Part shown: piece by piece, positions 5,322-52,556 of the stretch
Layout: each line of letters opens with the position of its first letter
Numbering within the stretch: position 1 is the stretch's first letter
From: an uncultured Clostridia bacterium
Lineage (GTDB): Bacteria; Bacillota; Clostridia; Oscillospirales; Oscillospiraceae
Assembly: GCA_947058885.1 (NCBI GenBank)
Contig: CAMSIF010000003.1
Span: 1-59,083, forward strand
DNA: 59,083 nt
Direction of reading: 5' to 3'
The notes under the pieces: model-generated
Told to the model about the DNA's origin: nothing
What the model saw: the letters and a program-made list of their open reading frames with translations, nothing else
The model's database searches: none
Made by a program: the position numbers and the translations under genes

Positions 5322-5384
5322 TCCGGCGGACCCTGCGGCGGGACAGCCCTGCTGCGGGGCCCCGCGAGGGGAAAGGGGGAACCA

Positions 5385-29309: not shown

Positions 29310-30383
29310 TCATACCTCCACAAAGTTGTTTGAACCAACGCTGGTTTCAATAATCTTGATGTAGTTGTCTTTTTTCCTGTACATAATGTCCAAACCGCAC
29401 TTTATCTGCTCCAAAGAAAATCTGTGAGTAATAATGTCAGTTGGATGAATTCGGCCCAAAGCAAGCCGCTTCAGAATATAGTTCCAATCATCGTCCGAGG
29501 TATGAGTGAAGCTGGAGTTCCAAGTCCCAATGACCGTCAATTGATTTCGCAGGATCTTCCAATATGTATTTTTGTCCAGCGTCATGCCGGAGTAAGGATT
29601 ACCTGCTAAACAGACCCGCCCTCTTGGCGCGGAGGCATCAATCGCCTGCAAAACGGTCTCATTTTTCCCGACACACTCAAAGAACACATCTGCGCCGCGG
29701 CCGCCGGTCTTGTCCATCAGCCACTGAACGGCATTCTCCCTGCTGCTGTCACAGAAGTTTTCCCCGGTGATGTGCTGCTTTGAAAGCATATATTTCTGAA
29801 ATTCCTTGTTTCCTATAGCCAGAATATTTTTTGCCCCTGCATCCCGCAGAAACATAATAAGCAGCATGCCAATCGTCCCCAGCCCGCATACCGCAACAGT
29901 CTCCTCCGGTCTGGGACTAAGCCTTCGCAGGGCATGTACCGCTACCGCCATAGGCTCCAGCATCGCCGCCTCCTCGAAGGTTATACTTGCGGGCAGTTCC
30001 AGCAGATTCTCCGCCGGAACAGCTGCATATTCCGCAAAGCCGCCGTTCTGCCGGGAACCAAGATAGCTGTAATTCCTGCACATTTCGTACATCATTTTCC
30101 GGCAGGGCGCACATGTTTTACAGGGAATCAGCGGGAAAACGCCTACCCGTTTTCCCTGCCAGCTGCCGTCCGCCTCCGGCCCAACCTTTACAACTTCACC
30201 AGAAAACTCATGCCCTGGAATTGTTGGAAAGGAATAGGTCCCCGTTTTATAAATACGTGGAATATCCGAACCGCAAATGCCTGCCGCCCGGACTTCCACC
30301 AATACTTCCCCGGCTTTTAGCTCCGGTACTGGGATTTCCTCCAGCCGCAAATCATTTACTCCATGCAGTACCCAGGCCTTCAT
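29310..30383 (-). CDS. zinc-dependent alditol-phosphate/alcohol dehydrogenase (TarJ/GatD-like)
   Basis: The 357-residue medium-chain dehydrogenase has the catalytic zinc motif AAGICGSDIPRI with PGHEFSGEVV, the structural zinc cysteines CKTCAPCRKMMYEMC and the NAD(P) loop VCGLGTIGMLL. It overlaps the cytidylyltransferase gene by four bases (ATGA). TarJ-type enzymes reduce ribulose-5-phosphate to ribitol-5-phosphate for CDP-ribitol, and the neighbours (IspD/TarI-like, pentulose-phosphate epimerase) support that kind of role. Sugar specificity is inferred; galactitol-1-phosphate dehydrogenases are close relatives. It is the last gene of the glycan operon. Confidence 0.85.
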   Translation of the reverse strand: MKAWVLHGVNDLRLEEIPVPELKAGEVLVEVRAAGICGSDIPRIYKTGTYSFPTIPGHEFSGEVVKVGPEADGSWQGKRVGVFPLIPCKTCAPCRKMMYEMCRNYSYLGSRQNGGFAEYAAVPAENLLELPASITFEEAAMLEPMAVAVHALRRLSPRPEETVAVCGLGTIGMLLIMFLRDAGAKNILAIGNKEFQKYMLSKQHITGENFCDSSRENAVQWLMDKTGGRGADVFFECVGKNETVLQAIDASAPRGRVCLAGNPYSGMTLDKNTYWKILRNQLTVIGTWNSSFTHTSDDDWNYILKRLALGRIHPTDIITHRFSLEQIKCGLDIMYRKKDNYIKIIETSVGSNNFVEV

Positions 30384-31081
30384 TTGCGATACCTCCCCGC
30401 GATTTCCTGAAAACGAGCCAAATCCGTCTGGGTCGTAATCTTAAAATTCCCCTCGTCACCCGGGATTAGGCGGATGTCCATCCCTGCTAGGACTGCCGGT
30501 TCGGATGCGCCGTTAATCTGTAAAAGCTTATCTGGCGGCAGCATGATGTTCGCTTCATAATACTTGCCTAATTGGAATATCTCCGGCGCTTGTCCGGCAA
30601 AAAGCTCTTTCCGATTCAGCAAGGATGAGATAGCCATTCCATCCAGGCTTGCATATACGGTATCTTTCATTGGCAGCGCCGGCAGCACGCCGTCGTAGCC
30701 TGTGACCGCTTTAAGACACGCGGAAATTAACGCCTCGGTAAGCATTGGGCGCGCGGCATCGTGTACGAGCACATAATCTGTATCTGCCGCGTACCGGCGG
30801 ATATCCTCCAGTCCATGCAGGATGGACAACTGCCTGTTCTCTCCGGGCAGAGAGAATCCCATAAACTTTTTCTCCAGGTGTTCCGCTGGTATCCAACGCC
30901 GGACCGCTTCCTGCCACATTGGGTCCGCTGCAATCTGGACCGCTTCGATTCCTTCGTGCCTGAACAGCCGCTCCAGACTCCAAGCGATCACCGGCCTTCC
31001 GCTCACCTCTATGTACTGCTTTGGGATCTCTCCCCCCAGTCTTGTCCCGGTCCCGCCGGATAAAAGAAGCCCTATGTTCAT
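30380..31081 (-). CDS. IspD/TarI-family cytidylyltransferase
   Basis: From the ATG at 31081, which shares one base with the upstream stop (TAATG), the protein has 233 residues. It shows the IspD/TarI nucleotide-binding signature LLLSGGTGTRLGGEIPKQYI, VLVHDAARPML, and FKITTQTDLARF near the end. IspD makes CDP-methylerythritol; TarI makes CDP-ribitol. Coupling on both sides to a pentulose-5-phosphate epimerase and a TarJ-like dehydrogenase favours an alditol-phosphate substrate. It would supply an activated alditol-phosphate for the polymer made by this operon. Confidence 0.88.
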   Translation of the reverse strand: MNIGLLLSGGTGTRLGGEIPKQYIEVSGRPVIAWSLERLFRHEGIEAVQIAADPMWQEAVRRWIPAEHLEKKFMGFSLPGENRQLSILHGLEDIRRYAADTDYVLVHDAARPMLTEALISACLKAVTGYDGVLPALPMKDTVYASLDGMAISSLLNRKELFAGQAPEIFQLGKYYEANIMLPPDKLLQINGASEPAVLAGMDIRLIPGDEGNFKITTQTDLARFQEIAGRYRK

Positions 31082-31743
31082 TAAAAACGCAGCTCCCTGA
31101 TGTTCTCTAATGTTTCCCCGTAAGGCTTTCCGTGTCCAAACAGCAGCGTTGTCCCCAGAACAAATCCCTTTACGCCCTTCGGCGCGAACTCCAGAATCTT
31201 TTCCGCGCTGCACGCCCCATCCCAGTAGATTGAAAAGTCCATGTCGTCCTTGAGGGAAATAAGCTTTGTGATTTTCTTCCCCACGTAAGGCAGGTACATC
31301 TGTCCCGCACTGCCCGGGTTCACCGACATCACCAAAACTTTTTTCACAATCCGCAGCATTTCCAGCACAGTTTCAACTGATGTTCCGGGATTGATGGCAA
31401 TCCCCGGCACCATCCCCGCGTCAATGATTTTTTTCAGAGTCGTAGATGGATGATACTCCGCTTCCGGATGAATATACACCGTATCTCCCGGCCGCAGTCC
31501 CTTCAAGAACAGCCCCACGCAGTTGCTCGGATGCTCAATCATCAGGTGAACATCCATCGGTTTCAAGGAGGCCCCCGCTATGTAACGCATATCGTTCAAA
31601 GACATGGCAAAATTGGGCACGTACCGTCCGTCCATGATGTCAATATGAAACGAATCGATGCCTCCTGCCTCCAGATCCCGTACCTCCTGCTCCAGATTTC
31701 CAAAATTGGCGCACATCATTGACGCCATCAGTTCAAACTCCAT
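31081..31743 (-). CDS. ribulose-phosphate 3-epimerase family protein
   Basis: The 220-residue TIM barrel keeps the epimerase metal and proton-transfer residues: His33 and Asp35 (FHIDIMDG), His66 (DVHLMIEHP) and the later Asp in IYWDGACS. It interconverts ketopentose 5-phosphates such as xylulose- and ribulose-5-phosphate. It differs from housekeeping Rpe in loop sequences (SVNPGSAGQMYLPYV). Its location in the glycan operon next to the cytidylyltransferase suggests that it feeds the CDP-alditol branch rather than the pentose pathway. Confidence 0.88.
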   Translation of the reverse strand: MEFELMASMMCANFGNLEQEVRDLEAGGIDSFHIDIMDGRYVPNFAMSLNDMRYIAGASLKPMDVHLMIEHPSNCVGLFLKGLRPGDTVYIHPEAEYHPSTTLKKIIDAGMVPGIAINPGTSVETVLEMLRIVKKVLVMSVNPGSAGQMYLPYVGKKITKLISLKDDMDFSIYWDGACSAEKILEFAPKGVKGFVLGTTLLFGHGKPYGETLENIRELRF

Positions 31744-31773
31744 ACCTGCTCCCTCCTTTTTGACTGCGTATAT

Positions 31774-32865
31774 TCATGTCAGGAATCTACACCCTGTATG
31801 GACAATATTCAGTCTATCCTGGTTATACATAAAGTACAGCGTTTCCAACGTTTCCCCTATATAACCGATGTATCTGTCATGACGCTCCCAACCTTTTGGG
31901 ACGCTGAGCTGTTCAATCCGCTCAAGAATTGGGAACAGCCAAGCGCAATAGTCCGCCAGCACATTTCCACGCGCCAGGATGATGTTATAGTTATAAAAAT
32001 ACTGCTGCCCTAATATCTTGGGAAGACCTTCCGCATAGTCCGGCTGAAGCTCCCGAAGAGCCGCCAGCGCTGCGTTCCAATCAGATTCGGATAAATAACG
32101 TCTGTGGTGGGACGCAATGTCCGGCTCATACGGCATGGGATAAGGCAGAACGGCATCCACGTCGTTGTCTGACAGTTTTAATATATCGTCCGCTGTCAGC
32201 CGCAAAATCCTTCGGTAATGCGCCAGCCCGAAATACTCCTCTGGGCCGCCGGAGGTTGTGTTCATCAGGAGGTTTTTCCATATCCAATACAAGGCTGTCA
32301 GCTCAGAATAATTGCTGTTTTTAGAGGAGATATTTTCCCCGTCGCAGTCCAGAAGGTCCGCGACCCGCTCTTTGCAGAGCTGCGCTCCCACTTGTATAGG
32401 CGTTATCCATTCCGGTTTATCAAAGGCTTCCGTTAGCGCGGGGTCTTTATAAAATTTTGCCATAAACATATGGAGCTGTGGTCTATGCCAGCCGATGGGC
32501 AGCGCCGCCAGCGGCATGCAGACTTTTTCCTGTGCATAGTAATAGCCCATAAGGTCTGCCCAGCGAAGAGAAGTCAGTCTGCTGTAGCAGCGAAGGCCGT
32601 TTTCCTCCAAGGTATTCTCAATACCATCCATTACGTTCTCTGGAGTGGCGATCAACACCTCAACGTTCTCTTTTTCTGATTTTGATAATCCTCGGGCAAA
32701 GCCGGCAACCTCCAGAACCGGGAGTCCTCCCAGGAGCTGCGGGTCCTTTCCAAACTTTGACACGAGGAAACACTGCGGCTTCCTCCTTGGGTATAACGCG
32801 CAAATTGCCCTGTATGCGCCCAAGGCGATTCCCTGCGCGCCGAATATCACCAGTTCCATGTCCAA
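31774..32865 (-). CDS. Rossmann-like module fused to DUF4422 glycosyltransferase-like domain (1)
   Basis: Residues 1 to about 110 form the recurring nucleotide-binding-like module (MELVIFGAQGIALGAYRAI). The C-terminal 250 residues are DUF4422, seen in NISSKNSNYSELTALYWIWK and YFGLAHYRRIL, a domain found in capsule and glycan transferases. The first codon is TTG at 32865 (GAGAGG seven bases upstream) or ATG at 32859. It is a likely cytosolic sugar transferase. It resembles the gene at 34129 in architecture, and the two flank the UDP-glucose dehydrogenase gene. Confidence 0.8.
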   Translation of the reverse strand: MDMELVIFGAQGIALGAYRAICALYPRRKPQCFLVSKFGKDPQLLGGLPVLEVAGFARGLSKSEKENVEVLIATPENVMDGIENTLEENGLRCYSRLTSLRWADLMGYYYAQEKVCMPLAALPIGWHRPQLHMFMAKFYKDPALTEAFDKPEWITPIQVGAQLCKERVADLLDCDGENISSKNSNYSELTALYWIWKNLLMNTTSGGPEEYFGLAHYRRILRLTADDILKLSDNDVDAVLPYPMPYEPDIASHHRRYLSESDWNAALAALRELQPDYAEGLPKILGQQYFYNYNIILARGNVLADYCAWLFPILERIEQLSVPKGWERHDRYIGYIGETLETLYFMYNQDRLNIVHTGCRFLT

Positions 32866-32877
32866 CCGTTTACCTCT

Positions 32878-34116
32878 CTAATCCCTTTTAAAAAGATCTC
32901 TGGTATATACTTTTTCTTTTATATCATCAAGACAGCTCTCATATCGATTCGCAATAATGCAGTCTGACATTTTTTTGAATTGGGAAAAATGATTGACAAC
33001 CTTGCTTCCCAAAAAAGTTGTTCCATCTTCCAGAGAGGGTTCATATATAATCACTTCCGCCCCCTTTGCTTTGAGCCGCTTTATAACGCCTTGCACAGAA
33101 CTCTGCCGGAAATTATCGCTGCCGGATTTCATTGTAAGCCGGAAAATGCCGATGACGACGCTCTTTTCCAGCGACAAATCATATTCCATCTTTTCACTAT
33201 AAGAATAGTATCCCGCTTTTTTCAGCACCTGATCCGCTATAAAGTCCTTTCGTGTCCGGTTGGATTCTACAATCGCCCTGATTAATTTTTCCGGAATACT
33301 GCTATAGTTTGCCAATAGCTGCTTGGTATCCTTGGGAAGACAGTATCCTCCGTATCCAAAGGATGGGTTGTTATAGTGGCTGCCAATACGGGGATCAAGG
33401 CATACGCCCTCTATAATTTCCGCGCTGTTGAGCTCCTTTACCTCCGCATAAGTATCCAGTTCGTTAAAAAAGCTCACTCGAAGCGCAAGGTATGTATTAG
33501 AAAACAGTTTGACCGCTTCCGCCTCCGTTGTTCCGATCAGCAAAACCGGCACGTCCTCTTTCAGCGCCGCCCCGCTGAGCAATCCGGCAAATAATCGGGC
33601 GCGTTCCCTTGCGTCTTGGTCCGCCGTATTATGTCCAACAATAATGCGCGAAGGATATAGATTATCGTGAAGCGCTCTGGCCTCCCGCAGAAACTCGGGG
33701 CTGAATAAAATCCGGGAGGTCTGGCGGCTCTGTATCATCCGGTTCGTGAACCCCACGGGAATAGTTGACTTGATTACGACGGTTGCGCTTGTGTTTACAG
33801 ACAGGACCTTCTCGATGACGCCCTCCACCGATGACGTATCAAAATAATCCTTCTGGCTGTCATAATCCGTAGGAGTCGCTATAATGACAAGCTCCGCCTC
33901 CCTGTAGGCTGTTTCAGCGTCCGTTGTTGCGGACAGCTTTAAATGCCGCCCCCGCATATATTCTTCAATTTCTTTGTCCCGGATGGGCGAAATCCTGCTG
34001 TTGACCTGCCTGACTTTATCCTGACAAATGTCCACCGCCGTCACGTCATGTTTCTGCGAAAGTAAAACAGCCAAGGACAGCCCAACGTATCCTATGCCCG
34101 CAACTGCAATCTTCAT
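32878..34116 (-). CDS. ugd: UDP-glucose/nucleotide-sugar 6-dehydrogenase
   Basis: The 412-residue enzyme has the NAD site [20 protein letters not shown], the [19 protein letters not shown] region and the catalytic Cys259 in [11 protein letters not shown]. It oxidises UDP-glucose to UDP-glucuronate. With the epimerase at 35257 this gives UDP-galacturonate. GGAGG precedes the ATG. It sits between the two DUF4422 genes in the glycan operon. Confidence 0.93.
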
Positions 34117-34128
34117 TTTTATCCTCCG

Positions 34129-35244
34129 TTACCTGACGAAGTGTTTTCTTGCAATGTAAATTCGGTAGTTCTTCTCATGGTGCATAAAGTAAACCGACAT
34201 CAGCCGCTCAGCCAAAAATCCGATAAACCGCTCCTGATACCGGTCCTTATGGACAGCGCAATTCTTTTCACAATAGTCCAGAATAGGAAAAAGCCACTGG
34301 CAGTAATTGTCGAAAATCTCCCGCCTGGCCAGGAACATATTGTACGCGTAGTAGTACCTGGAACGCCCCAAAAAACGAAGGTCCTCTTCATACTCGGGTG
34401 CTAAACGCTTAACGGCCGCTTCCATGGCGGTCCAGTCCGTCTCCGCGTGATCATGGCAATAGACGCTTTTAACGTCAGGGAAATTCACTACCGGCGTAGT
34501 GAGGATGACATCCACATCTGAGCTGGGAAGGGCGTCAATATCCTCTTTTGAAAGGCAAAAGTGCCTGCGGTAATGGCAGATTCCCTTATATTCCGCACGA
34601 TCATGTTTCCAAATCCAATATAATCCGGTCAGTTCACAATACTGCGGGTTTTTCTCTGATATATTGTCTCCTATGTCGTCACGTATATCGCATAACCTCT
34701 CCGCACTGAGACTCGCGCCAACCTGAAGCGGAATCTCCCAGTCCGGCTCATACTGCTCCATCAATTTCTTGTCATAGATGCTTCTTACAGAATAAACATG
34801 TGTTGAACCTGTAACAGGGTTCCCGCCGCTTACAAACGGCTGATACGGTCTATAACACCTATTTTTCCCCGCACAGTAGCTTCGCAGATAGAGATCCTGC
34901 ACCTCGCTCCACTCGTCGCTTTCAAACGTCAGGGGAAGAATATTCATGAAACCAGACTGCCGCAGAAGATCCGCTATTGTTTCAAGATGCCGGTCCATAC
35001 ACGCGATTACCATCAGCGAACCGTCTAAATCCCGTTTTGCCAAGTCCTTCAAATCCACCACAGGCCGCCCTAACAGCGTCTGCGGATTATCCCCCTTGGC
35101 AGAGACGGCAAATTCGGCGATATTGCAGTGAAAAGGTTCATCCATCAAGCACCGCGCCACTTCTTCAGCAACCAGATGCGCGCCAAATATGTAAATGTTC
35201 CGAGCCTGCTTCAGCCGGCATATGATTTTGCTGTCATACTTCAT
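34129..35244 (-). CDS. Rossmann-like module fused to DUF4422 glycosyltransferase-like domain (2)
   Basis: The 371-residue protein has an N-terminal module (ARNIYIFGAHLVAEEVARCL, up to about residue 115). A linker follows, then DUF4422 (NISEKNPQYCELTGLYWIWK, YKGICHYRRHF). The glycine pattern of the module is degenerate (FGAH), so it may not bind a nucleotide. It is probably a cytosolic transferase paired with the gene at 31774. Donor and acceptor are unknown. Confidence 0.8.
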   Translation of the reverse strand: MKYDSKIICRLKQARNIYIFGAHLVAEEVARCLMDEPFHCNIAEFAVSAKGDNPQTLLGRPVVDLKDLAKRDLDGSLMVIACMDRHLETIADLLRQSGFMNILPLTFESDEWSEVQDLYLRSYCAGKNRCYRPYQPFVSGGNPVTGSTHVYSVRSIYDKKLMEQYEPDWEIPLQVGASLSAERLCDIRDDIGDNISEKNPQYCELTGLYWIWKHDRAEYKGICHYRRHFCLSKEDIDALPSSDVDVILTTPVVNFPDVKSVYCHDHAETDWTAMEAAVKRLAPEYEEDLRFLGRSRYYYAYNMFLARREIFDNYCQWLFPILDYCEKNCAVHKDRYQERFIGFLAERLMSVYFMHHEKNYRIYIARKHFVR

Positions 35245-35256
35245 GCTTCGTCCCCG

Positions 35257-36363
35257 TTATTTTCTATTCCCTTCTGGCGGCGTCTCCAGTCCGCAGCCAT
35301 AAAATTCCTTATACCATAGCGCAAATTTTCGGAGGCCGGTTCTCAAGTCCGTGCTTGGCTTATATCCCAAGTCCCGCTCCAGCGCGGATGTGTCCGCGTA
35401 TGTTTCCGGAACATCCCCTGGCTGCATAGGAACCAATTCCCTGTACAGCTCAAACTGATAGTCTGCGGGAAGCACCTCTGCGTTGACCAGCTCCTGCTGG
35501 AGAACCGTCACAAAATCCAACAGATTTTCTGGATGTCCATGGCCTACATTGTAGATTTTATATGGAGGAACCGGAACGCCGTCTTCCTGCCTGCGGCCCG
35601 GCGGACTATGCAGCATAACTCGCATAATACCCTCTACGACATCATCTATATAGGTAAAATCCCTCTTGCAGTTGCCATAATTAAAAATTTGTATAGACTG
35701 TCCTCTGCGCAGTTTGTCCGCAAACCCAAAGTAGGCCATATCGGGACGGCCCGCCGGTCCATATACCGTGAAAAAACGCAGGCCCGTTACAGGCAGGTCA
35801 TATAGTTTAGCATATGCGTAGGCCATCAGTTCGTCGGATTTCTTAGTTGCCGCGTATAACGACACCGGCGTGTCCACTTGGTCCTCTTCGTGGAAGGGGA
35901 CTTTCCGGCTGCCGCCGTATACCGAAGAGCTGGATGCATATACAAGGTGCTGCACGCCGGGCGCACCATGGCCGCGAGAGTGGCGGCACGCCTCCAGAAT
36001 ACGGTGAAACCCTACGAGATTCGATTCAATATAGGCGTCCGGATGGGAAATGCTGTGCCGCACCCCCGCCTGGGCGGCCAGATTGACAACGATGTCAAAC
36101 CGGTACTCTTCAAAGAGTCTGTCTACCAAGTCTTTATCCGCAATACTGCCATTGATGAATTTCCAAATGCTCTTGCTGTTTTTCGCAGTCTGCTCCAAAA
36201 CAGACAGACGATATTCTTTCAGTCGGGGATCATAGTAGTCGTTCATGCTGTCGAGGCCCACAACCGTGCACTGCGAGGCATCTGCTAAAATGCGTCCGGC
36301 CAGATTGCTGCCGATGAATCCCGCAGCGCCCGTAAGTAAGATTGTCATATGGTTTAATGTCAT
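35257..36363 (-). CDS. NAD-dependent epimerase, UDP-glucuronate 4-epimerase type
   Basis: The 368-residue short-chain epimerase has ILLTGAAGFIGSNLAGRIL (NAD loop), YASSSSVYGG and SLYAATKKSDE (catalytic Tyr-x3-Lys), and GLRFFTVYGPAGRPDMA with RDFTYIDD. These are typical of CapI-like UDP-glucuronate 4-epimerases rather than GalE. It would convert UDP-glucuronate, made by the dehydrogenase two genes downstream, into UDP-galacturonate for the glycan. Confidence 0.9.
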   Translation of the reverse strand: MTLNHMTILLTGAAGFIGSNLAGRILADASQCTVVGLDSMNDYYDPRLKEYRLSVLEQTAKNSKSIWKFINGSIADKDLVDRLFEEYRFDIVVNLAAQAGVRHSISHPDAYIESNLVGFHRILEACRHSRGHGAPGVQHLVYASSSSVYGGSRKVPFHEEDQVDTPVSLYAATKKSDELMAYAYAKLYDLPVTGLRFFTVYGPAGRPDMAYFGFADKLRRGQSIQIFNYGNCKRDFTYIDDVVEGIMRVMLHSPPGRRQEDGVPVPPYKIYNVGHGHPENLLDFVTVLQQELVNAEVLPADYQFELYRELVPMQPGDVPETYADTSALERDLGYKPSTDLRTGLRKFALWYKEFYGCGLETPPEGNRK

Positions 36364-36377
36364 AGTATTTCTCCCTG

Positions 36378-38531
36378 TTATCCGAGACCGTCCATCAGAT
36401 TGCAGATTGGCGTGTTCCCATCGTATGGGTCGCTAAAAGAGAATTTTGCGCGAAGCGTATGCGCCATATCCGTGTGCTTGCTATAGAGCATACGCATTGC
36501 AGACAGCGCAAACTCCTTTGAAACCGCCTCCCAATGAATGTCTTTGCAATTTTTTATAAGCGTGGACAGTTCGTTTTGTGTGTCCCGCAGCAGTTCCGCG
36601 TTATACTCTGTACCGGGTACTGTAACCGCGCAGCCAGATTCTGAAAATCCTCCAAATTGGCCTTCTTCAGAAGCGTACAGCATCTCCAGGAAAAGGTGAA
36701 GCTGAGAAACATCCGACAGGCTGTAAACGGAATCATGCCACTTTTCGTTTATGTTCCCCCACACAGATGAGACAAACTGCAAATTACTGACATAATCGTT
36801 CGGCAGGGCAGACGTCCCCAACGCTATGAGGTGGATTTGCCTGCCTAGTATGTTCGAGAGTCCATAAACAAGCGTCCCGTGCGTGACGATATCAACGATA
36901 GCAATCTTTTCAAAGCGGTCCACCCCAAGCTCATGAATATATTGGAGATACAGTCTGCGGTTTTTCTCGGATTTTTCAAAGATAGCGGCTTTGTTTGAAA
37001 GGAGCTTCTTTCGCAGTCCATCTTTTCCCCATTTTTCGACCGCCTCTCCGCTGGTTATGTCATATTCTTCAGAGACCTCTATTTGAAATTGATTCCTCAA
37101 AAATTCCCTCAAATTCAGCCCTTTATTTACAAAAAGCTTACTGCAAAAAACAAGGATATCTTTTTCATTGAAAACGGCGGCGCTGCTTACTGCTGACCGG
37201 GATGCATAAAAGTAGAACGCTTCTGGTAAACTCTCCAGCTGCCGCTCTTCTCTGGCCTTACAGTAGAGTTTATGAAGGAAAAATCCATCCCGGGATGGAA
37301 ACAGAACCGCGTCATACCGGCTTGCCTGGCTAATAATAAAGGAAAAAAACAATCCCGTTACCGGCAGGAAAAATAACGCCAGTTCATGGCAGGAGTTAAT
37401 CTGGAGCTTCCCCTCGTACCCATGCAGGGAGAAGGGGGCGTTACAGAGGTCCGCTATCATCGTTCCCAGCAGAAGGCGGTCGTCAAAGCTCTTGGCGGAA
37501 TCAACCAGATAGGCGGCGGACGAAGACGAGAGCATGTCGCGGCCACTCATGACCTGATAGGAATCGACTCCATGCTCGACAGCCTGTTTTATGTCGGCCT
37601 CACGATGATCCCCGATATGCAGAATATCGTTCTCCGGAGCCTTTGCTTTCAGGATTTCATATAATCCGCCGGTCTTCTTACTTGCCCCCCAATCACAGGA
37701 AATCAGGGTGTCGTGGCAGCCGGTGATCCCGCATGTTTCAAGGAGGTTTTGGATAGTCTCCTTCGGGTAATACATATCAGAGGTCAAATATACAGCTTTG
37801 CCCTTTTTTAATGCGTATCGGAAGATGTCTGCCATGGCCTTTCTGGGCAAAAGCACCTGTTTCTCTATTCGAAGTTCCAGTTCTTTTGCCAGCTGGATAC
37901 CGGTTTCGTCAAGCGCGTATTCACGGCGCAGGCTTTCATAGATCATATCCACGGAAGGACTGACAGTTTCTTTACCGCATATCTGTTCAGCGGATATCCG
38001 CCAACGGGCAAAAGGAATATTCACTCCCTGATCATGCAGGGCTCTTTCAACCAGCTGGAACACATCAGCTGGCCAGAATACCCTCCGCGTAACCAGTGTG
38101 TCAAACATGTCAAAGGAAATCACACTGTGCCTGTCAATTTGCTCCATTAGTTCCGCCGGCGACTGTTTCCAGTAGGGATTCTTTTTATAGTACTCCTCTC
38201 CCGTCAGCCGGTACCCGCGCATATCAAAAACGGGTATTTCTTCTGGAATCAGATGCCGGATTCGCTGGTAAATAATACTTGTGGATGCGGGCGCGGCGGC
38301 AATCAAAATCATCTGCGTTTTTTCTGCCGCCTCCTCTATGGAAATAATTTCTTTTCCATACCGCGTTTCTCCTATATGTTCCGCAGCAATCAAGGCGGGG
38401 AAATGATATCCTTCCGCATTATTTAGTATAATTTCAGCATTTTGACCAATTCCGTATATTCCTACCGGCACATTCTTATATCCGCCAAAATAGCTGTCAA
38501 AGGTTCTTTTGAACTTGTCATTTCCATCCAT
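36378..38531 (-). CDS. Rossmann-like module + HAD hydrolase (COG5610-like) + unknown C-terminal domain
   Basis: The ATG at 38531, with AGGAG seven bases upstream, gives 717 residues; a longer start at 38585 overlaps the previous gene without a ribosome site. The N-terminal module starts VPVGIYGIGQNAEIIL. A HAD domain follows (SFDMFDTLVTRRVFWPADVF with DxxD, VYLTSDMYYPK, ILHIGDHREADI), then about 380 residues of unknown fold. Related large HAD proteins are common in polysaccharide loci, where they may act on sugar-phosphate intermediates. Its precise role here is unknown. Confidence 0.78.
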   Translation of the reverse strand: MDGNDKFKRTFDSYFGGYKNVPVGIYGIGQNAEIILNNAEGYHFPALIAAEHIGETRYGKEIISIEEAAEKTQMILIAAAPASTSIIYQRIRHLIPEEIPVFDMRGYRLTGEEYYKKNPYWKQSPAELMEQIDRHSVISFDMFDTLVTRRVFWPADVFQLVERALHDQGVNIPFARWRISAEQICGKETVSPSVDMIYESLRREYALDETGIQLAKELELRIEKQVLLPRKAMADIFRYALKKGKAVYLTSDMYYPKETIQNLLETCGITGCHDTLISCDWGASKKTGGLYEILKAKAPENDILHIGDHREADIKQAVEHGVDSYQVMSGRDMLSSSSAAYLVDSAKSFDDRLLLGTMIADLCNAPFSLHGYEGKLQINSCHELALFFLPVTGLFFSFIISQASRYDAVLFPSRDGFFLHKLYCKAREERQLESLPEAFYFYASRSAVSSAAVFNEKDILVFCSKLFVNKGLNLREFLRNQFQIEVSEEYDITSGEAVEKWGKDGLRKKLLSNKAAIFEKSEKNRRLYLQYIHELGVDRFEKIAIVDIVTHGTLVYGLSNILGRQIHLIALGTSALPNDYVSNLQFVSSVWGNINEKWHDSVYSLSDVSQLHLFLEMLYASEEGQFGGFSESGCAVTVPGTEYNAELLRDTQNELSTLIKNCKDIHWEAVSKEFALSAMRMLYSKHTDMAHTLRAKFSFSDPYDGNTPICNLMDGLG

Positions 38532-38547
38532 ACATATACTCCTGCGT

Positions 38548-39687: not shown

Positions 39688-39700
39688 AGGCTACCTCTTT

Positions 39701-41461: not shown

Positions 41462-41465
41462 AACG

Positions 41466-44184: not shown

Positions 44185-44187
44185 AGT

Positions 44188-45309: not shown

Positions 45310-45348
45310 GGCTCAGCGATCTCCTTATATACATATCCCGCCTGTGCG

Positions 45349-47169
45349 CTATTTGTTTATCATTCCAATCCAGGCGGAAAACAACTTATCTCCGGTGTGT
45401 CCCTCATACGATATATTTTCGATAACCTCCACCAGTGAACAGTACTTGGACATAAGTGACCTCAGCTCCCCGGCTTCAAACCAGATTTCCCATTCTCCAA
45501 TCTCCATCCGTCCAAGTTCGTTCCTGTTTTTATCGATAACTACGATTTTTCCGCCGGGCTTGGTCACTCTGGCCATCTCTCTGACCGCACTCTCAACGTC
45601 AATCGCATGTTCCAAAGCCTCGCAGGTGTATACCATGTCAAAATAGTTGTCCGGATAAACAAGGTTTGTTAAAGTTCCCTGCTTTTTAATAACCCGATCA
45701 TCGGTAATAAACCTCATGACGCGCTTGGATAGATCTACAGCGTAGTAACTGTTTTCAGGCTCGTCCTCCAGAAGGTTTCGCAAATACCGTCCCTTTCCAC
45801 AGCCAGCATCCAGTATACGAAGACGCTTCTTCTCATTCTCACATCCGGCTGCGGACGCAACGCTGTTACGAACAATCTGATAACGTCCATCCGTCTTTTC
45901 TATGGTGTCCAGGAATGAATCTGCTTGCCTTTCAAATTCCGCAAGATTCTTATAGTATAGGGCGTCCAGAAAATACTTCACCGCCCAGCTGATCTCGCTG
46001 GTTGGGAAATATGTATTTTCTTCATCTGCGTTTTCCTCTGACAAATAACTCCCATACCATCCGCCAGATTTATTTTGCAGCTTACACGCGTAGGTAAACG
46101 CCCGGTTGGCCCGCTCAATCTCTCCCAGCCTGAACCAGACTAAAGCAAACTGGAACAGTCCGGTGGAGCACACCCACTCTACGTCGTTATAGGCGGGCGC
46201 CGCTCCGCTTTCTTTTTGCAGCTTCGCAACATTGTCCATAGCTTCACGGACCATCCCCTCTTCGCCCATGTCCAATAATCCCTCCATTACATAGGCATAA
46301 AAGTGGGACAGCAGTCCGAAGCTCATAATCTCCTCACGGCGGTTTGTTTTATAGTAATCCAAGATACGGTGCGCGGCCGCCTTATACTGTGGCATATGAA
46401 GGACTTCCGCCGCGTCTGCAAGAGGGGACAGGCAGTAGAGATGGATTAATTCAGAGCAGGTCTTTGCGTCCCCCCACGCCTCCTCCGTAGGCGTAACCAG
46501 CCGTCCGGTATCCTCCATACGGCTCAAAATCCAATTACAGCCCGCAATAATGTGGCTGTCAGCCTCCGGATAAAGTTCGCGGACCGCCAGCAGGCCCTTT
46601 AGAATTTGGGCGGTGTCGAATATATATGGGGATTCATCGTCTGTATCGTACCAGGAGCCGTCCGGCTTCTGAATATCGCACAGCCATTTGGCAAAGGATA
46701 CCGCTAATTCCCGATATCCCCAGCGCAGCAGCGTAGGTATGTAATAGCCTGTTACCTCCGGATAGCCCAATCGTTTATCTGTGTTGCAGATGATGGCTTG
46801 ACCGTCCACAGTGCCGCGGTGTACCCAATCAATTGCGCGTTGATATATTGCAATGTAGTCTGGGCGGCCCTGGATTTTTTCCCTGGTAATTCTGGCCTGT
46901 AATTCGGACATTGTCTCTGTGTTTGTAATCCCCGCCGCCGCAAGCTGCTGTCTAATCTCCGCCTGGTACTGTTCGGAAACCGAGATGATAATGGGATATT
47001 GCCGCGCTTCCTCTACGTAATCCGGAAAATAGCGCACCGGAATTCCCTCTACGCCGCTTCCGGACTTGGTAATATTATTGTCTGCCAAAAATGCAATCTT
47101 ATCTTTTCCCAGCAGCTTGATTACCATCCTGGCAGACGCGCCGGCCCCAAATAAGACATATTTTTTCAT
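45349..47169 (-). CDS. three-part protein: Rossmann-like module, alpha-toroid, SAM methyltransferase
   Basis: The ATG at 47169, just past the upstream stop and behind GGAG, gives 606 residues. Residues 1 to about 95 are the module (KKYVLFGAGASARMVIKLLG). About 100-430 form helical repeats with QKPDGSWYD and QNKSGGWYGSY, reminiscent of QW motifs of terpene-cyclase-like alpha toroids. About 435-606 form a class I methyltransferase (RILDAGCGKGRYLRNLLED, YFDMVYTCEALEHAIDV). Methylation of a glycan or lipid-linked intermediate is a reasonable guess. I do not recognise a named family for the whole protein. Confidence 0.82.
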   Translation of the reverse strand: MKKYVLFGAGASARMVIKLLGKDKIAFLADNNITKSGSGVEGIPVRYFPDYVEEARQYPIIISVSEQYQAEIRQQLAAAGITNTETMSELQARITREKIQGRPDYIAIYQRAIDWVHRGTVDGQAIICNTDKRLGYPEVTGYYIPTLLRWGYRELAVSFAKWLCDIQKPDGSWYDTDDESPYIFDTAQILKGLLAVRELYPEADSHIIAGCNWILSRMEDTGRLVTPTEEAWGDAKTCSELIHLYCLSPLADAAEVLHMPQYKAAAHRILDYYKTNRREEIMSFGLLSHFYAYVMEGLLDMGEEGMVREAMDNVAKLQKESGAAPAYNDVEWVCSTGLFQFALVWFRLGEIERANRAFTYACKLQNKSGGWYGSYLSEENADEENTYFPTSEISWAVKYFLDALYYKNLAEFERQADSFLDTIEKTDGRYQIVRNSVASAAGCENEKKRLRILDAGCGKGRYLRNLLEDEPENSYYAVDLSKRVMRFITDDRVIKKQGTLTNLVYPDNYFDMVYTCEALEHAIDVESAVREMARVTKPGGKIVVIDKNRNELGRMEIGEWEIWFEAGELRSLMSKYCSLVEVIENISYEGHTGDKLFSAWIGMINK

Positions 47170-47170
47170 T

Positions 47171-47395
47171 TCATTTGTCTCCAAGCTTCTTTAACGAAAG
47201 CAGCTGCCGGCGGGCTGTTGCCACAACAGACGCAAGCTTCATATAGTCCTTGTCTGTCAGATAATATTGAAGGGATGAGCTTTGTATATGTATATCAAAC
47301 GGGGCGTAATTAGGGTCGTAGCCCTCGTTGAGTTCAATTACAATCCGCTCATTTTTTATATGAAATGTACTGAGATCCTTGATTTTTTCACCCAT
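47171..47395 (-). CDS. small protein, domain shared with the 453-residue neighbour
   Basis: The 74-residue protein contains FDIHIQSSSLQYYLTDKDYM and KLASVVATARRQLLSLKKL. The N-terminal region of the protein at 48038 has the same strand-strand-helix pattern (IHVHIGEFRITFSIAEFLEA). No membrane segment and no known motif are present. It is translationally close to the gene at 45349. Function unknown. Confidence 0.6.
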   Translation of the reverse strand: MGEKIKDLSTFHIKNERIVIELNEGYDPNYAPFDIHIQSSSLQYYLTDKDYMKLASVVATARRQLLSLKKLGDK

Positions 47396-47453
47396 AGTTC
47401 ACAATCATACCTTTCCGAAAAGCTTGCGTTTTACTTGCGAGTGCAGTGTGATA

Positions 47454-48017
47454 TTACATTTGTAAAAAGTTCTCGCGATTAAGATAAACCCCTGTGTCCG
47501 AAGGAACTGTGCAACGGTAACCATTTTGCTGCATAAACCGATACAGCAGCTCCTTTTGTACGGACAGATCGCCCCAGGCTTCGCCAAACAAGTTCTTCAG
47601 CTCACGCTCATATTTACCAGTGTCCGAAGCCCTTTTATGGAGTAACATATGGTATAGCAGTGAATAAGGATAATCAGCATCCGACAAAACGTAATAATTC
47701 TTGCAGGGAACTCTTCTCTGCAACATATTCAGTTCCCACTGGGCGTCATAATATCCATCGCCTATTGTCCTGATATCCATCAATACGCGTACAGAACCGA
47801 CGGTTGTATAATAATTATAACATGGCTGTATATTGGATAGAGGCTTTGCGGCGGAACGATTCACAAAACGGTCTTTGTCCCGGCATAGAATATCCAGATC
47901 CTCTCCCTCTAAACAACGCTTTGTAATGGACTGATGGTTGCGTAGAATCACATACTCTTCCGTATTAACTGCCTCAAATAACGCGTCTACAGAGACCCAG
48001 CCGTTTTCCATTGCCAT
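47454..48017 (-). CDS. nucleotidyltransferase-like protein
   Basis: The start ATG at 48017 has AAGGA six bases upstream; ATG at 48023 has none. The 187-residue protein shows VILRNHQSITKRCLEGEDLD, then ILCRD and a later VLMDIRTIGDGYYD, the acidic pattern of MNT-like nucleotidyltransferases found in glycan loci. A helical tail follows (YPYSLLYHMLLHKRA). It may transfer a nucleotide or phosphoryl group to a glycan precursor, but the assignment rests on a short motif. Confidence 0.55.
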   Translation of the reverse strand: MAMENGWVSVDALFEAVNTEEYVILRNHQSITKRCLEGEDLDILCRDKDRFVNRSAAKPLSNIQPCYNYYTTVGSVRVLMDIRTIGDGYYDAQWELNMLQRRVPCKNYYVLSDADYPYSLLYHMLLHKRASDTGKYERELKNLFGEAWGDLSVQKELLYRFMQQNGYRCTVPSDTGVYLNRENFLQM

Positions 48018-48037
48018 AATCATTCCTTTCCTCTTGC

Positions 48038-49399
48038 TCAGTAGGTTATATTTGTCAGATAACCCTCCGCGACTTTATCATATTCCTGAGCTAAAAGCTG
48101 TTCAACTATCTTTCCCGCACACTGAAAGAACACCTTCTCAAGTAAATATAAGAGTTCCTGCGAACGCAGCATTTCCCGGCGTTTTTGGATAAACGCAATG
48201 TCCTGTTCACGAAAAGCTCCCAGATTAAATACACAGCTTGCAACAACAAAAACCAAAGCGGTACAATCGTCCGCTTCCACAAAGCCCTTTGAGGCGTTCT
48301 TCCTTCTCTTACTCCAGCCATGCTTATTGACTTCTTGATCCAAAGGAAGGAGCGCGTTTTGAAACATACTTTTACAATACAGCCGGTCACAAACAAGGAT
48401 TTTGCTGTCAGTAAATTGGAATACGAGCGGTGAGGGAAGTCCATATAAAAGGGAGTACTTTTTAAAAGCATCGCGACTGCCCGCCTGACCAGCTATAGTT
48501 TTGATTTTTCCCGTACTGTTTGCTTCCGTAATCAACAACTTATCTGCAATTGTTTCACCGGTTTTATTGAATATTTTATAATCAACTACATAATACTCTA
48601 AGCCAACTGCCTGTATCTTTTCTATAAAACAAGGAAAATCCATATCAGGCTTAATGTCCTCTTTTTCTGCTCCTCGCGAAGGAGCATTCTCAGTTTTTTT
48701 CGGGTTCGCAGAAAACCTTTTCTGCTCATATATGGATATTTTTTTCCGCTCTTCTTCCTGACAGTCCTCTATGCTGGGCTCGCCCTCAAAGGTTATTTTT
48801 AAGACAGGTACTGTAGATTCGCCGCCCAGTAAATGATACAGACACGCGGCTCTGTGGTCTCCATCAAAGATTCGCCCATATTGATTTATCATGATATATT
48901 TGTTATCAAAGGGGTACCCGGCCCTTTTAATCAGGTCAAGCATGTTAAATAGTCTTTCTTCATTGCTCACATTAAACAAATTGATTTGTTTGAATGTGCG
49001 CATTTCTTCTTTATTTCCACATAAAGCCCGTACCAGCCTCGATTCAGATAGCGGTACGATTCGATCAAGCTCTTCCCGGTTATAGACACGTTGTATGGTA
49101 TATAAGGTATTGAGCGGACGTTCCTCGTACTCAACTTTTTGAATTATGTCGTACCGGCTGAGCCAATCCCAGTCCAAAGAGCTTAAGTCAAATTTGTACA
49201 AGGATAAATCCTTTAGTTGTAGGATTTGGTCCGCAGCATTCAAAATACTTTCAGCTGCCTCCAAAAATTCTGCTATCGAAAATGTAATCCTGAATTCACC
49301 TATATGAACGTGAATTGACTCGCCAAGATTATCTTCAATCTGAATTCTCTTTCCTTGAATAGTTGTTTCAGCTAATAAGTAAACCGCTGGATTAGACAT
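48038..49399 (-). CDS. unknown protein with ParB-like DGDHR motif
   Basis: The 453-residue protein has three visible parts. The N-terminal strand-helix region (1-60) is shared with the 74-residue neighbour. A ParB/sulfiredoxin-like segment, IMINQYGRIFDGDHRAACLY near 170-190, is of the type that in other families binds nucleotides or phosphoryl groups. After a charged linker (about 210-250) comes a 200-residue C-terminal domain with YYVVDYKIFNKTGETIADKL and CDRLYCKSMFQ. I do not recognise the full architecture. Very AT-rich codon use compared with the flanking chromosome suggests transfer. It overlaps the upstream frameshifted gene by eight bases. Confidence 0.65.
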   Translation of the reverse strand: MSNPAVYLLAETTIQGKRIQIEDNLGESIHVHIGEFRITFSIAEFLEAAESILNAADQILQLKDLSLYKFDLSSLDWDWLSRYDIIQKVEYEERPLNTLYTIQRVYNREELDRIVPLSESRLVRALCGNKEEMRTFKQINLFNVSNEERLFNMLDLIKRAGYPFDNKYIMINQYGRIFDGDHRAACLYHLLGGESTVPVLKITFEGEPSIEDCQEEERKKISIYEQKRFSANPKKTENAPSRGAEKEDIKPDMDFPCFIEKIQAVGLEYYVVDYKIFNKTGETIADKLLITEANSTGKIKTIAGQAGSRDAFKKYSLLYGLPSPLVFQFTDSKILVCDRLYCKSMFQNALLPLDQEVNKHGWSKRRKNASKGFVEADDCTALVFVVASCVFNLGAFREQDIAFIQKRREMLRSQELLYLLEKVFFQCAGKIVEQLLAQEYDKVAEGYLTNITY

Positions 49400-50020
49400 A
49401 GAAATCCCTCCCCTTGGGTGCAGTCGTTACCGTATTGCCATTGGAGAACATGGTTTTTGATATGAACATTCCTGCTAAGATGAGGCAGTCTGCTGCGCAA
49501 TATTCCTGCGGGAGAAATCTTGGCAGAAACCCTTTCTGCTTCAACTCTTGACCGCTTCCCTTTATGCTGTTATTGACATAGAAGTGCGTCATATTCCCCC
49601 CACAGCCGATGCTTGCCTGTGGAAAGACGTTTTTTATGAGTTGTAAAGCCCCTATGTCAATAAAGGTCTCTCCGACATTAGTGAACCAGCAGTTGTTGTC
49701 ATATATTATTTTCATATTGCACCAATTTCTTAATCTTACATAATTTTGAGACAAGTCTGATATTTGCGTTGCGCCGCTGTCCGATAACATATCGCGCATT
49801 TCCAGTTCTACCTTTAGATCGACAGTTCCAAGCAAGACCGGCTTTCCATGTATGCGCTGCTTAGCTTCTTCTAACGGAATAATTGGCGCCTCTGCTTTAC
49901 AATGTTGCTTACTTTTATCATTATCAATAAAAACTCGACTTCTCCATTGAGAACCGAAAAGGCTGCTTTTCCCGCAAATCCGGCACCAAAAATAATCCAC
50001 TTGGAGTTCTCCCTTCCCAT
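49392..50020 (-). pseudogene. Rossmann-module protein interrupted by a probable 1-nt frameshift
   Basis: The natural start is ATG 50020, with GGAGG upstream, reading KWIIFGAGFAGKAAFSVLNG, the module seen throughout this operon. The frame then breaks at the five-A run 49929-49933 (T5 in the gene). Adding one T restores EVEFFIDNDKSKQH and an open frame to 49392. Without repair only a misframed 214-codon version from 50036 exists. The C-terminal half has SIGCGGNMTHFYVNN and is of unknown family. The shift may be a sequencing error or a real inactivation. Confidence 0.75.
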
Positions 50021-50045
50021 TAGAAGCCACCTCCATCCTTTGACT

Positions 50046-52556
50046 CTATTTTGAGGGTAGTATAGCCGCCCAGATGTCCGCGCCTATGTTTGGACGGGAC
50101 GCTTGTTTTGGCGGCGCGTCTCTTTGTATACCTGTACACACCTTCAGCAAATAGTCTATTGAGCAGAACTCATTTTCTTCAAGCGGCTGCTTGGGATTTT
50201 CACAAGCAAGCTCTGCCAATACTTGGGTTTGTGCATATGTCAATATAAAAGAATATTCACGCACCTGACCATTTTCCTGTACTTCATAAAGCACGGATTC
50301 ATTTCTGTCAAATAAATATTGTTTACCCATGTATCGTTCATAGAGTATACCGTTGCAGTAATCATACGCAAGCGCGTATTCTTCATGGCTTCTATTTTTA
50401 TCGTGACAGATAAGACTGCCGTCTCTGCCCATAACGTACAAACACTTCTCGTTTAATGGATCAATAATAATATCTCCATTGAGAAGACAGGTAAGCGAAA
50501 CACGAGAGAACGGAACTGGTGCTGCGCCGGAAACGGCGTCTTGGTCTATGGAATATTTTAATATCCGCTGGTTGTTGTAATCGTTGATGTACAGGAATTC
50601 TCCGTCAGAGGTTAAGGCTGTTATTTTTGCGTCGTCCAACGGCAGCTTTTTCCACATGAGTCTGTCCTCAGCCATGTCATATAAGAACAATTCATTACTC
50701 CCAGACCGTGTTCCAATGATTATTTTTTCTCTCCACCTTAACGAGGCTGATGTAAACTGTAAATATGGTGAAATTCCAGTTTTTTGGACCGGCGAGAGAT
50801 ATTCAATCTCCAACGACTCCGTATTTATCCTGACTATGTGTTTGTAGTAACACGGAATACAGTATATATAGTTTCCGTATATATACGCATTAATAAAGGA
50901 GAGCGGGAAATTATCTCCGCTGATTCCTCTGATTTTACAACTTGTGAATTGCCGGGTAAGCGTATCAAATACGCAGATATTTTTGTTTAGAGCAGGGATA
51001 AGGAAAATGCGATGTCCTCTTTTCTTTATGGATATATACGTTCTTCCGACGACACTTTTTTCACCGGGAATTTTCCCAATAATCTCTAGTTCTCCCTTGG
51101 ACATATCATATTTCATCAGAACATTTATTTTTCCATGCACAAACCAAACAGAACGCTCATCTATACAAAAATGAGTTGCCCAAACAGGAAAACATCTCAT
51201 GAACGGATGATTCATATTTTTTACCTTGCTGTTTTGAATCATCACTGGCTTCCCGCTGTTTTCGCATAGGTGGGCTACAGAACTCGGGTCCCCATAGTAG
51301 GCGTCGCAAAGCTCCAAAGCCCGGTTCATGTCGGAGGAATCATCATAGATCCCCCAACCCTCAGTCCGATATTGCTTCACAATCCGCTGATACTCGAGCC
51401 AAAGCTGAGGCCGCATGGACTCGATGGTAGCTTGAATCAGAGGATGAGGACGCCATAGCAGCGCCGCCTCATCCTGGTTATCTTTGAAAATCCGAAGAAC
51501 GTATCGGATTTTATCCAGCATTTTATCGCTATGCTCCAGGAGAGCGGTAACACTGGTGTTATACAAAATAATTTTCTTCCAACTGCCATCCGGCTTCTGG
51601 ATGATCTTCAGCCAGTCCTTCGGGACAGTAATATCCTCCAGTTTAGTGCTTTGAATTTTATCGAATTTAGGAGACCCTAAGCCCAGAATCTTCTGTTCCC
51701 AACCGAGCCTGGTCTGTTCTCCAAATTTGTTTACGAGTATATTAATATAAGCCTGGCGCATGTCTTCAGACTGAACAATAGTCATATCTGAGAAAAAAAC
51801 GCCAGACGACGCACAAAAGTGCTCAATTTCCTGCCCTGCGGCATCGTCGTCCGGATGAATCTCCTCCAGGACAAAATAAGGGATGTATACCAGTTTTTCT
51901 GTGAACTTTTTCAGATTTTTCGTATAGAAAAAGGGCTCGACGGTGGTGACAAAATTGCATTCGTCATATGGGTTGTGGATAAATACGATATCTGGCCTGC
52001 GGCTGGCAAAATCATAGTCTTTATACCAGATTACCGGCACATCCTTGGGATATTGCCCACCCTCGTAGTGCAATTCCCGGAAGCTGCCATCCGGGTTTTT
52101 GTCATAGTAGGGAATCGGAATGACGTACGCATCACAGGTGGGGTCCGCGTTTGCTGCCTGCCATACGCTTTCTAATGAATCCCACATGGAAGCTTTGTAA
52201 GGAAGAAAAACGACCTCTTTTCGTACTGCGATATCTTTTTCCACACTCGCCTTTGCCTGCATCAGGGTCCCATCCAAAAGCTTCTGGGCCTTCTGGACGG
52301 AGATCTCTTCCGGAATACCTATGCTCACCTGGTACAGCCTCTCACAGTAGGCCTCCAACAGCAGTACAGCGGGGTGCTCCCCACCCTCACTCTCCTCTAT
52401 GGTCTCACCGATTTGGAGTGCGCTTTGTTGGCACTCCTCCAAAAGAGCGCGGGCTGTATCCAATTCATTCCTTTTGATATATTTTTTTATTGCGTCATGG
52501 GCCTCCAGTAATGTCTGGAGAATCTCCATTATCCGTGCCTTCTGTACTTTCTTCAT
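50046..52556 (-). CDS. TagF-like (CDP-alditol phosphotransferase) domain fused to a beta-propeller-like domain
   Basis: The 836-residue protein begins with a coiled coil (about 1-110). A GT-B-like region follows (about 110-465) whose second half, LLWRPHPLIQATIESMRP and CDAYYGDPSSVAHLCENSGK, resembles CDP-glycerol glycerophosphotransferases. The last 370 residues are repeated beta segments (INDYNNQRILKYSIDQD, YVMGRDGSLICHDKNR), likely a propeller. The phosphotransferase assignment fits the TarI/TarJ-like genes in the same operon but is by similarity pattern only. It is the first gene of the glycan operon. Confidence 0.72.
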   Translation of the reverse strand: MKKVQKARIMEILQTLLEAHDAIKKYIKRNELDTARALLEECQQSALQIGETIEESEGGEHPAVLLLEAYCERLYQVSIGIPEEISVQKAQKLLDGTLMQAKASVEKDIAVRKEVVFLPYKASMWDSLESVWQAANADPTCDAYVIPIPYYDKNPDGSFRELHYEGGQYPKDVPVIWYKDYDFASRRPDIVFIHNPYDECNFVTTVEPFFYTKNLKKFTEKLVYIPYFVLEEIHPDDDAAGQEIEHFCASSGVFFSDMTIVQSEDMRQAYINILVNKFGEQTRLGWEQKILGLGSPKFDKIQSTKLEDITVPKDWLKIIQKPDGSWKKIILYNTSVTALLEHSDKMLDKIRYVLRIFKDNQDEAALLWRPHPLIQATIESMRPQLWLEYQRIVKQYRTEGWGIYDDSSDMNRALELCDAYYGDPSSVAHLCENSGKPVMIQNSKVKNMNHPFMRCFPVWATHFCIDERSVWFVHGKINVLMKYDMSKGELEIIGKIPGEKSVVGRTYISIKKRGHRIFLIPALNKNICVFDTLTRQFTSCKIRGISGDNFPLSFINAYIYGNYIYCIPCYYKHIVRINTESLEIEYLSPVQKTGISPYLQFTSASLRWREKIIIGTRSGSNELFLYDMAEDRLMWKKLPLDDAKITALTSDGEFLYINDYNNQRILKYSIDQDAVSGAAPVPFSRVSLTCLLNGDIIIDPLNEKCLYVMGRDGSLICHDKNRSHEEYALAYDYCNGILYERYMGKQYLFDRNESVLYEVQENGQVREYSFILTYAQTQVLAELACENPKQPLEENEFCSIDYLLKVCTGIQRDAPPKQASRPNIGADIWAAILPSK

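Follow-up and report, generated by a model that had tools for sequence, protein, structure and literature searches.

Module-bearing genes of the glycan operon

The window analysed here is a stretch of 59,083 nucleotides (contig CAMSIF010000003.1, assembly GCA_947058885.1) from an uncultured Clostridia bacterium of the Oscillospiraceae, and it contains a glycan operon on the minus strand at positions 29310–52556. Nine intact proteins and one frame-disrupted gene of this operon bear a Rossmann module of approximately 93 residues. Next to a HAD-like protein, the intact carriers were assigned by Pfam to DUF4422 (two proteins), TOD1_MUCI70, DUF362, TupA ATP-grasp, GT4, GT2 and a combination of toroid and methyltransferase domains. 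The toroid label derives from Pfam SQHop_cyclase_C (squalene-cyclase-like), and the HAD call is weak (NCBIfam TIGR01549 with 23.8 bits vs a cut-off of 23.3; Pfam Hydrolase_like below its cut-off).

The module lies at or near the N-terminus of seven intact proteins and at the C-terminus of the GT2 and DUF362 proteins. In the DUF4422 proteins, it was placed N-terminally at 32557–32865 by profile searches (protein 31774–32865; DUF4422 with a Pfam E-value of 5.8e-39) and at 34906–35205 by profiles and an AlphaFold model (protein 34129–35244; model m7af6b992c241), both copies carrying an FxVS-type second strand. Pfam together with profiles located D-type (FxDN-like) copies at 39346–39648 in the TOD1_MUCI70 (DUF616-type) protein 38548–39687, at 39704–39973 in the DUF362 protein 39701–41527, and at 46891–47172 in the toroid-methyltransferase protein 45349–47184, as well as an FxVT-type copy at 42315–42605 in the TupA-like ATP-grasp protein 41466–42761. 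Further D-type copies are those of the GT4 protein 42748–44184 (43876–44184; Pfam PglD_N and profile) and of the GT2 protein 44188–45309 (44212–44490; profiles and AlphaFold model m06b21bd14350). A divergent N-terminal copy in the HAD-like protein 36378–38585 (38187–38492) was detected by one of two profiles built without window copies. The placement stated in the original prediction, N-terminal in most proteins and C-terminal in the GT2 and DUF362 proteins, was correct apart from the TupA protein, in which the module occupies residues ~53–149 behind an N-terminal extension.

In the disrupted gene, the module is split over two frames. Three-frame translation placed strand 1 and the GAG loop at 49931–50002, in a frame differing from that of the open reading frame (ORF) 49392–50036, and the part from FIDND onward lies inside this ORF at 49761–49946 (translation, and profile E-value of 1.3e-7). 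Either a sequencing error or decay may account for the split.

The presence of the module on all ten proteins, proposed earlier from the sequence, was borne out by two profiles without window copies, which recovered nine copies and then that of the HAD-like protein, the segments of both profiles having themselves been gathered by searches with profiles that included window copies. The first profile comprised 150 module segments from other loci and was run on the 126 window ORFs of at least 100 amino acids (aa) at E ≤ 10. It matched the TupA (9e-20), DUF4422 (protein 34129–35244; 2e-17), GT2 (3e-17), toroid-methyltransferase (4e-17), DUF362 (7e-15), GT4 (1e-14), MUCI70/DUF616 (2e-13) and DUF4422 (protein 31774–32865; 3e-13) copies and the disrupted gene; the HAD-like copy was missed, and no further ORF of the 126 was matched. 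The second profile, from another random 150 segments without window copies or HAD-type proteins, was searched against ten HAD-type proteins only and gave an E-value of 6.8e-6 (scaled to 126 ORFs) for the HAD-like copy and values of 1.6e-14 to 2.1e-7 for its nine homologues. In a leave-one-out analysis among the window copies, eight of ten were recovered, those of the HAD-like protein and of DUF4422 protein 31774–32865 being missed. Alignment A1 includes the window copies, and its scores for them are circular.

The genome to which the window belongs (2.40 Mb, 178 contigs, 76% complete) gave 17 module matches at E ≤ 1e-3. Nine are located within 16 kb in the operon and six within 8 kb on contig C45, with one each on contigs C106 and C123; in 20000 random placements of 17 matches, at most five fell into any 16 kb. 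On contig C45 (genome G000, locus L050) lies another glycan locus; it encodes six module proteins, two of which form a tandem DUF4422 pair that parallels the pair of the window (one pair with 49% identity).

Motif, pocket types and conservation

The module was originally described by the pattern (V/I)x(F/Y)GAG..G with a later acidic D-N/S spot. The module is there, but this wording proved loose: the strict form (V/I)x(F/Y)GAGxxG fits three of the ten window copies by eye (GT4, TupA and the disrupted gene), and the acidic spot is absent from four (both DUF4422, TupA and HAD). Inspection by eye further revealed a GxGxxG loop together with the strand-2 Asp in three of the nine intact copies (GT4, GT2 and DUF362), GxGxxG without Asp in TupA, GxGxxA with Asp in the toroid and without Asp in the HAD copy, and a CxGxxG-type loop with Asp in MUCI70; both DUF4422 copies are devoid of GxG and Asp. 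In the disrupted gene, loop and Asp are both present, spread over its two pieces.

Strand 2 of the modules ends with Asp in 57% of cases and with Val in 33%. Among 494 segments, 282 belong to the FxDN-like (D) type, 142 to the FxV(S/T) type and 70 to neither. Outside DUF4422, the V(S/T)-type copies retain the two loop glycines (71/72 and 70/72), and the DUF4422 copies have lost the second glycine and the Asp. Mean conservation in the D and V(S/T) sets was highest for strand 1, with strand 4 and the Gly loop coming next; for the DUF4422 set, the Gly loop and strand 1 ranked highest, and helix 2 was least conserved in all three sets. Only the loops were taken as evidence for a ligand because the strands form the core of the fold, and the loop after strand 4 is poorly conserved in the D type. 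The conservation of the strand-2 letters arises partly by construction of the pocket types. Well-conserved positions, the kind of pocket or surface signal called for by the original prediction, occur behind strands 1 and 2, in loops that form part of the canonical ligand face. As far as can be judged from sequence, this pattern speaks, on balance, for retention of a ligand site that has two or more specificities. The two pocket types argue against one common ligand, and the suggestion that a single nucleotide or sugar serves all modules was not borne out; NAD(H) and CoA stay among the candidate ligands.

Fold and closest known systems

AlphaFold models of two divergent copies (GT2 and DUF4422 protein 34129–35244), each compared separately with known structures, showed one fold, in accordance with the common fold predicted earlier; one of the two is among the most divergent copies. 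The closest structures were the WbaP regulatory domain, 3nkl, the NAD(H) domain of Rex and the platform that holds the NDP-sugar in PglD-type acetyltransferases. We class the module as a small Rossmann domain of the nucleotide-binding type, in one group with the WbaP DUF (CoA_binding_3), the PglD N-terminal domain and the Rex NAD(H) domain. Its foreseen resemblance to PglD N-terminal or CoA-binding-like domains was supported by Pfam, profile and fold matches.

Both models predict the fold of the WbaP DUF (PDB 8t53), a member of CoA_binding_3 (PF13727). In the excerpts available, CoA_binding_3 is described for two enzyme types, WbaP and PglF-like dehydratases, behind a four-helix membrane bundle, whereas the module is found on approximately 20 enzyme types, mostly without predicted membrane segments, and in one bundle-free form. 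Direct PF13727 matches were obtained for one of 83 modules at E ≤ 1. No arrangement of a four-helix bundle with a PGT or dehydratase domain was detected by Pfam in the module proteins of the window, and among module proteins of at least 220 aa, only a PglF-like dehydratase (L077) has four predicted membrane segments.

With PglD_N (PF17836; PglD, VioB, PerB, WeeI and Pcryo_0637), the module shares the fold, the Gly loop and the FxDN motif, FLDN of VioB aligning with the module consensus fvdn. The GT4 protein exceeded the gathering cut-off of PglD_N (24.9 vs 23.4 bits), the Pfam scan gave no PglD_N row at E ≤ 10 for the other nine of the ten window proteins, and 32 of 83 modules matched at E ≤ 1. 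PglD_N is the substrate platform of a left-handed β-helix acetyltransferase, whereas the module carries many other catalytic domains instead: no Hexapep row was obtained by Pfam for the ten window proteins, and Hexapep occurs in two of 110 sampled related module proteins.

The C-terminal NAD(H) domain of Rex is among the top sequence-profile and fold matches. The module differs from it by its glycan operon context, with 12–20% identity in structural alignments, and a Rex-type N-terminal winged helix is absent from the ten window proteins (Pfam, E ≤ 10). PDB 2g6t, the N-terminal domain of the FkbM methyltransferase 2py6 and C2185-like_N (PF22674) are relatives in the form of single proteins without recorded function. 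PF22674, presumably named after the protein of 2g6t (a guess from the name only), matched five of 83 modules at E ≤ 1 and, at E ≤ 10, none of the ten window proteins.

According to excerpts of the published work, the homologous domain of Pcryo_0637 is the UDP platform of the active site, in which Asp40 and Ser11 are positioned at the ribose, Asp41 binds uracil, and two residues, Cys13 and Ala75, point their main-chain amides towards the phosphates (PMC8040287). The excerpted account of WbaP reports that the DUF supplies most dimer contacts, made sheet-to-sheet, that UMP, UDP and UTP stabilise it, and that UMP inhibits the full-length enzyme at 4.1 μM; its authors propose that PglF-like dehydratases are subject to the same feedback (PMC10942596). 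For EpsZ, the same domain is described in an excerpt as modelled in contact with a dimer-promoting regulator (PMC12802240).

Partner enzymes and inheritance of the fusions

The window and 107 fetched loci (108 sources) contain 484 module proteins, in which about 20 enzyme families were found as partners, the names being taken from Pfam scans of parts of this set. These partners include GT2, GT4, DUF4422, TOD1_MUCI70, GT-D, GT90, Gly_transf_sug/Caps_synth, RgpF, LicD and Glyphos_transf, DUF4422 being a GT111 galactofuranosyltransferase domain according to an excerpt of PMC12269835. Others are FkbM, TylF and further methyltransferases, radical SAM, pyruvyl transferase, TupA ATP-grasp, DUF362, MptE-like, Hexapep, CTP_transf_like and xylose-isomerase-like barrels. 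Placement is fixed in some clusters (DUF4422, N-terminal in 115/115; an RgpF-type cluster with one member scanned, C-terminal in 21/21) and mixed in a large GT cluster (81 C-terminal, 12 N-terminal). Locus L143 encodes a single protein of module, radical SAM and polysaccharide pyruvyl transferase domains (3297–5675), and L058 a 620-aa protein (730–2592) in which two module matches stand in tandem, the first of them weak (E = 0.004), and which matched none of the Pfam families at E ≤ 0.01.

A FastTree tree was calculated from 141 modules of 22 loci (four chosen, 18 random). On this tree, the partner labels required 56 changes, against a minimum of 46 and a mean of 90.8 after shuffling; for the locus labels, 120 changes were required, against a minimum of 21 and a mean of 117.6 after shuffling. 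Judged by this tree, the copies mostly sort by partner enzyme rather than by operon, the fusions apparently being inherited with the enzyme. Module pairs from the same locus with different partners shared 19.75% identity vs 19.50% expected (7/300 permutations as high). This difference of 0.25 percentage points leaves room for at most a very weak operon-specific sequence code, and therefore for no strong operon-specific docking code.

Several genes of the operon, likewise on the minus strand, lack the module. At 29310–31743, Pfam identified a precursor cassette of a zinc-type dehydrogenase, which we take to be TarJ-like, an IspD/TarI-like cytidylyltransferase and a ribulose-phosphate epimerase (RPE), none of them with a module match; a UDP-glucose dehydrogenase-type gene (32878–34116) and an NDP-sugar epimerase-type gene (35257–36363) are likewise module-free. 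Three further genes without the module, at 47454–48023, 48038–49399 and 50046–52556, surround the disrupted gene in the region 47454–52556 and matched no Pfam family at E ≤ 0.05. Homologues of the dehydrogenase, IspD/TarI-like and RPE set recur in the DUF4422 loci (26, 41 and 41 of the 108 sources), which hints at a putative CDP-polyol precursor.

Across these loci, the module was found in none of 146 distinct ORFs homologous to the five precursor enzymes of the window (26 dehydrogenases, 50 IspD/TarI-like, 41 RPE, 12 UDP-glucose dehydrogenase-type and 17 NDP-sugar epimerases). Exceptions among other precursor enzymes are two CTP_transf_like proteins and the PglF-like dehydratase of L077 with its known PF13727 domain. 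In 67 loci with at least four module genes, 110 of 137 module-lacking in-cluster genes were sampled and comprised GT4 (18), GT2 (9), Epimerase (9), radical SAM (8), IspD (6) and UDPG dehydrogenase (5). The module-bearing non-DUF4422 sample from these loci (110 of 311; counts for the 25 commonest families) comprised GT2 (38), GT4 (10), FkbM (7), RgpF (6) and radical SAM (6). GT4 and radical-SAM genes are as common without the module as with it. Since the module-lacking sample also includes GT4, GT2 and radical SAM, the module marks many assembly and tailoring enzymes but not all.

Distribution in other genomes

A module match at E ≤ 1e-3 was obtained in 34 of 60 genomes, including that of the window, some of the matches lying in frames as long as those of PglF-like proteins or Rex. 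The locus sample was obtained by scanning named genomes with the two DUF4422 proteins and keeping the best 79 loci; a scan baited with the window GT4 protein found no relative. Co-occurrence in other glycan loci, proposed earlier as a check, amounted to 390 module proteins in the best 79 DUF4422 loci, present in 78 of them with a median of five per locus (loci up to 21 kb), the bait itself bearing the module and contributing at least one per locus by design. By NCBI family, these loci belong to Lachnospiraceae (60), Clostridiaceae (7), Eubacteriaceae (5) and Lactobacillaceae (1), with six without a family. In a phylum sample of 299 genomes, with up to 17 candidates scored per genome and the census diluted by ~210–235 aa frames that resemble Rex by length, 12 genomes besides that of the window had at least five matches at E ≤ 1e-5. 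Thus, the module is a trait spread across many related genomes and not special to the window operon.

An enzyme-free, apparently anchored copy

Some related loci encode small proteins of ~160 residues, which form two clusters. Their module is preceded by a conserved linker, such as MMNQWVKVKQEGK, and by an N-terminal stretch that is hydrophobic in the majority of them; an enzyme domain is absent. A profile from eleven founders collected 28 short proteins (<260 aa), of which 19 from 16 loci passed a simple hydropathy rule (hydropathy >1.4 over the first 60 residues), the sole basis of the membrane call; nine failed, two of the founders among them. The 19 include L130:4000–4476, L151:1601–2077 and L084:1650–2126 with 16 more, and copies are also present in L158 and L159. 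In twelve of the 19, a further module gene is no more than 60 bp away, and each of the 19 shares the strand of its nearest module gene. The anchored copies retain the Gly, the Asp and a Thr after strand 4. For the family members of L089 and L114, the latter of which fails the hydropathy rule, no Pfam domain was found above cut-off.

The anchored-family profile matched in two of 60 and three of 299 genomes; family members were recognised in G011 (183 aa, the genus of the window) and G245 (161 aa, elsewhere in the phylum), and the other three matches lie in longer frames. The same profile search found no anchored copy in the genome of the window. The linker motif W...GK...YF before the module was rejected as a general feature: its occurrences (21 of 484 proteins vs 0.6 by chance) fall mainly into the anchored family.

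Discussion

We put at about even the proposal that many glycan assembly enzymes have been equipped with one and the same domain, which binds nucleotides and serves regulation and assembly in the manner of the WbaP DUF and PglD_N. Enzymes of glycan assembly or decoration seem to have acquired the module repeatedly, at either terminus. It would bind a nucleotide or nucleotide-sugar at the GxG/strand-2 site and would associate with its own kind, bringing soluble enzymes together near the membrane; the bound ligand may then adjust activity or assembly, in line with the proposal made for UMP and WbaP. Sensing and docking are combined in this proposal because the anchored copy leans to docking and the kept pocket to sensing. 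Of the shared docking or ligand-sensing function suggested earlier, part has stood: the nucleotide-sensing, dimerising relatives (PMC10942596) and the UDP-sugar-binding relatives (PMC8040287), as far as the excerpts describe them, fit it, as does the anchored copy, but a strong operon-specific code does not accompany it. Taken further, and more tentatively, the operons may encode a modular glycan assembly line with the module as its general plug, in which soluble transferases, methyltransferases, radical-SAM and ATP-grasp enzymes would be recruited to a membrane-anchored enzyme-free copy or, failing that, to each other, nucleotide by-products would switch the assembly, and new enzymes would join by gaining the plug.

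The conserved loops after strands 1 and 2, the evolution of the copies with the partner enzyme instead of the operon, and the precedent of WbaP, as far as excerpted, would also suit modules that each sense a nucleotide by-product (UMP, UDP or CMP), a cofactor or a nucleotide-sugar and feed back on their own enzyme, with no shared complex. This explanation appears somewhat doubtful: an anchored enzyme-free copy has nothing to gate, and the module also occurs on FkbM methyltransferases, radical-SAM proteins and other enzymes for which no use of a nucleotide-sugar is expected. It is unlikely, conversely, that the module is purely a protein–protein adaptor with a relic nucleotide site. The hydrophobic N-terminus of the enzyme-free copy, the loss of the second glycine and the Asp in DUF4422, the precursor homologues devoid of the module and the sheet-to-sheet dimer described in the WbaP excerpt would agree with such a tag, but the Gly loop and the strand-2 letters (the latter partly by construction of the types) are among the best-conserved positions, the anchored copies keep Gly, Asp and Thr, and no operon-specific signal of note was seen.

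A substrate platform within the active site of each enzyme, holding the nucleotide half of the donor as in PglD and PerB, has its model in the excerpted Pcryo_0637 structure and would explain the constant placement in the DUF4422 and RgpF-type clusters. It is nevertheless the least probable explanation, as many GT2 and GT4 genes of these loci lack the module and its partners include methyltransferases and radical-SAM enzymes. Moreover, GT2, GT4 and the GT111-type DUF4422 enzymes are each expected to have a complete donor site already.

The fold and single fusions are already known (PglD_N, CoA_binding_3 and C2185-like_N as Pfam families). No report of such recurrent fusion to about 20 families within single loci, of the two pocket types or of the enzyme-free form was found in the literature searched, which excludes subscription papers and preprints. 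If the proposed nucleotide-binding and assembly domain indeed senses nucleotides or gathers enzymes, it would provide a single testable handle on the coordination of a dozen unrelated glycan enzymes, and the feedback idea for WbaP and PglF would extend from the first steps to much of the glycan pathway. The finding also suggests a function to seek for the N- or C-terminal 'nucleotide-binding' domain present on many glycan enzymes of Lachnospiraceae and their relatives.

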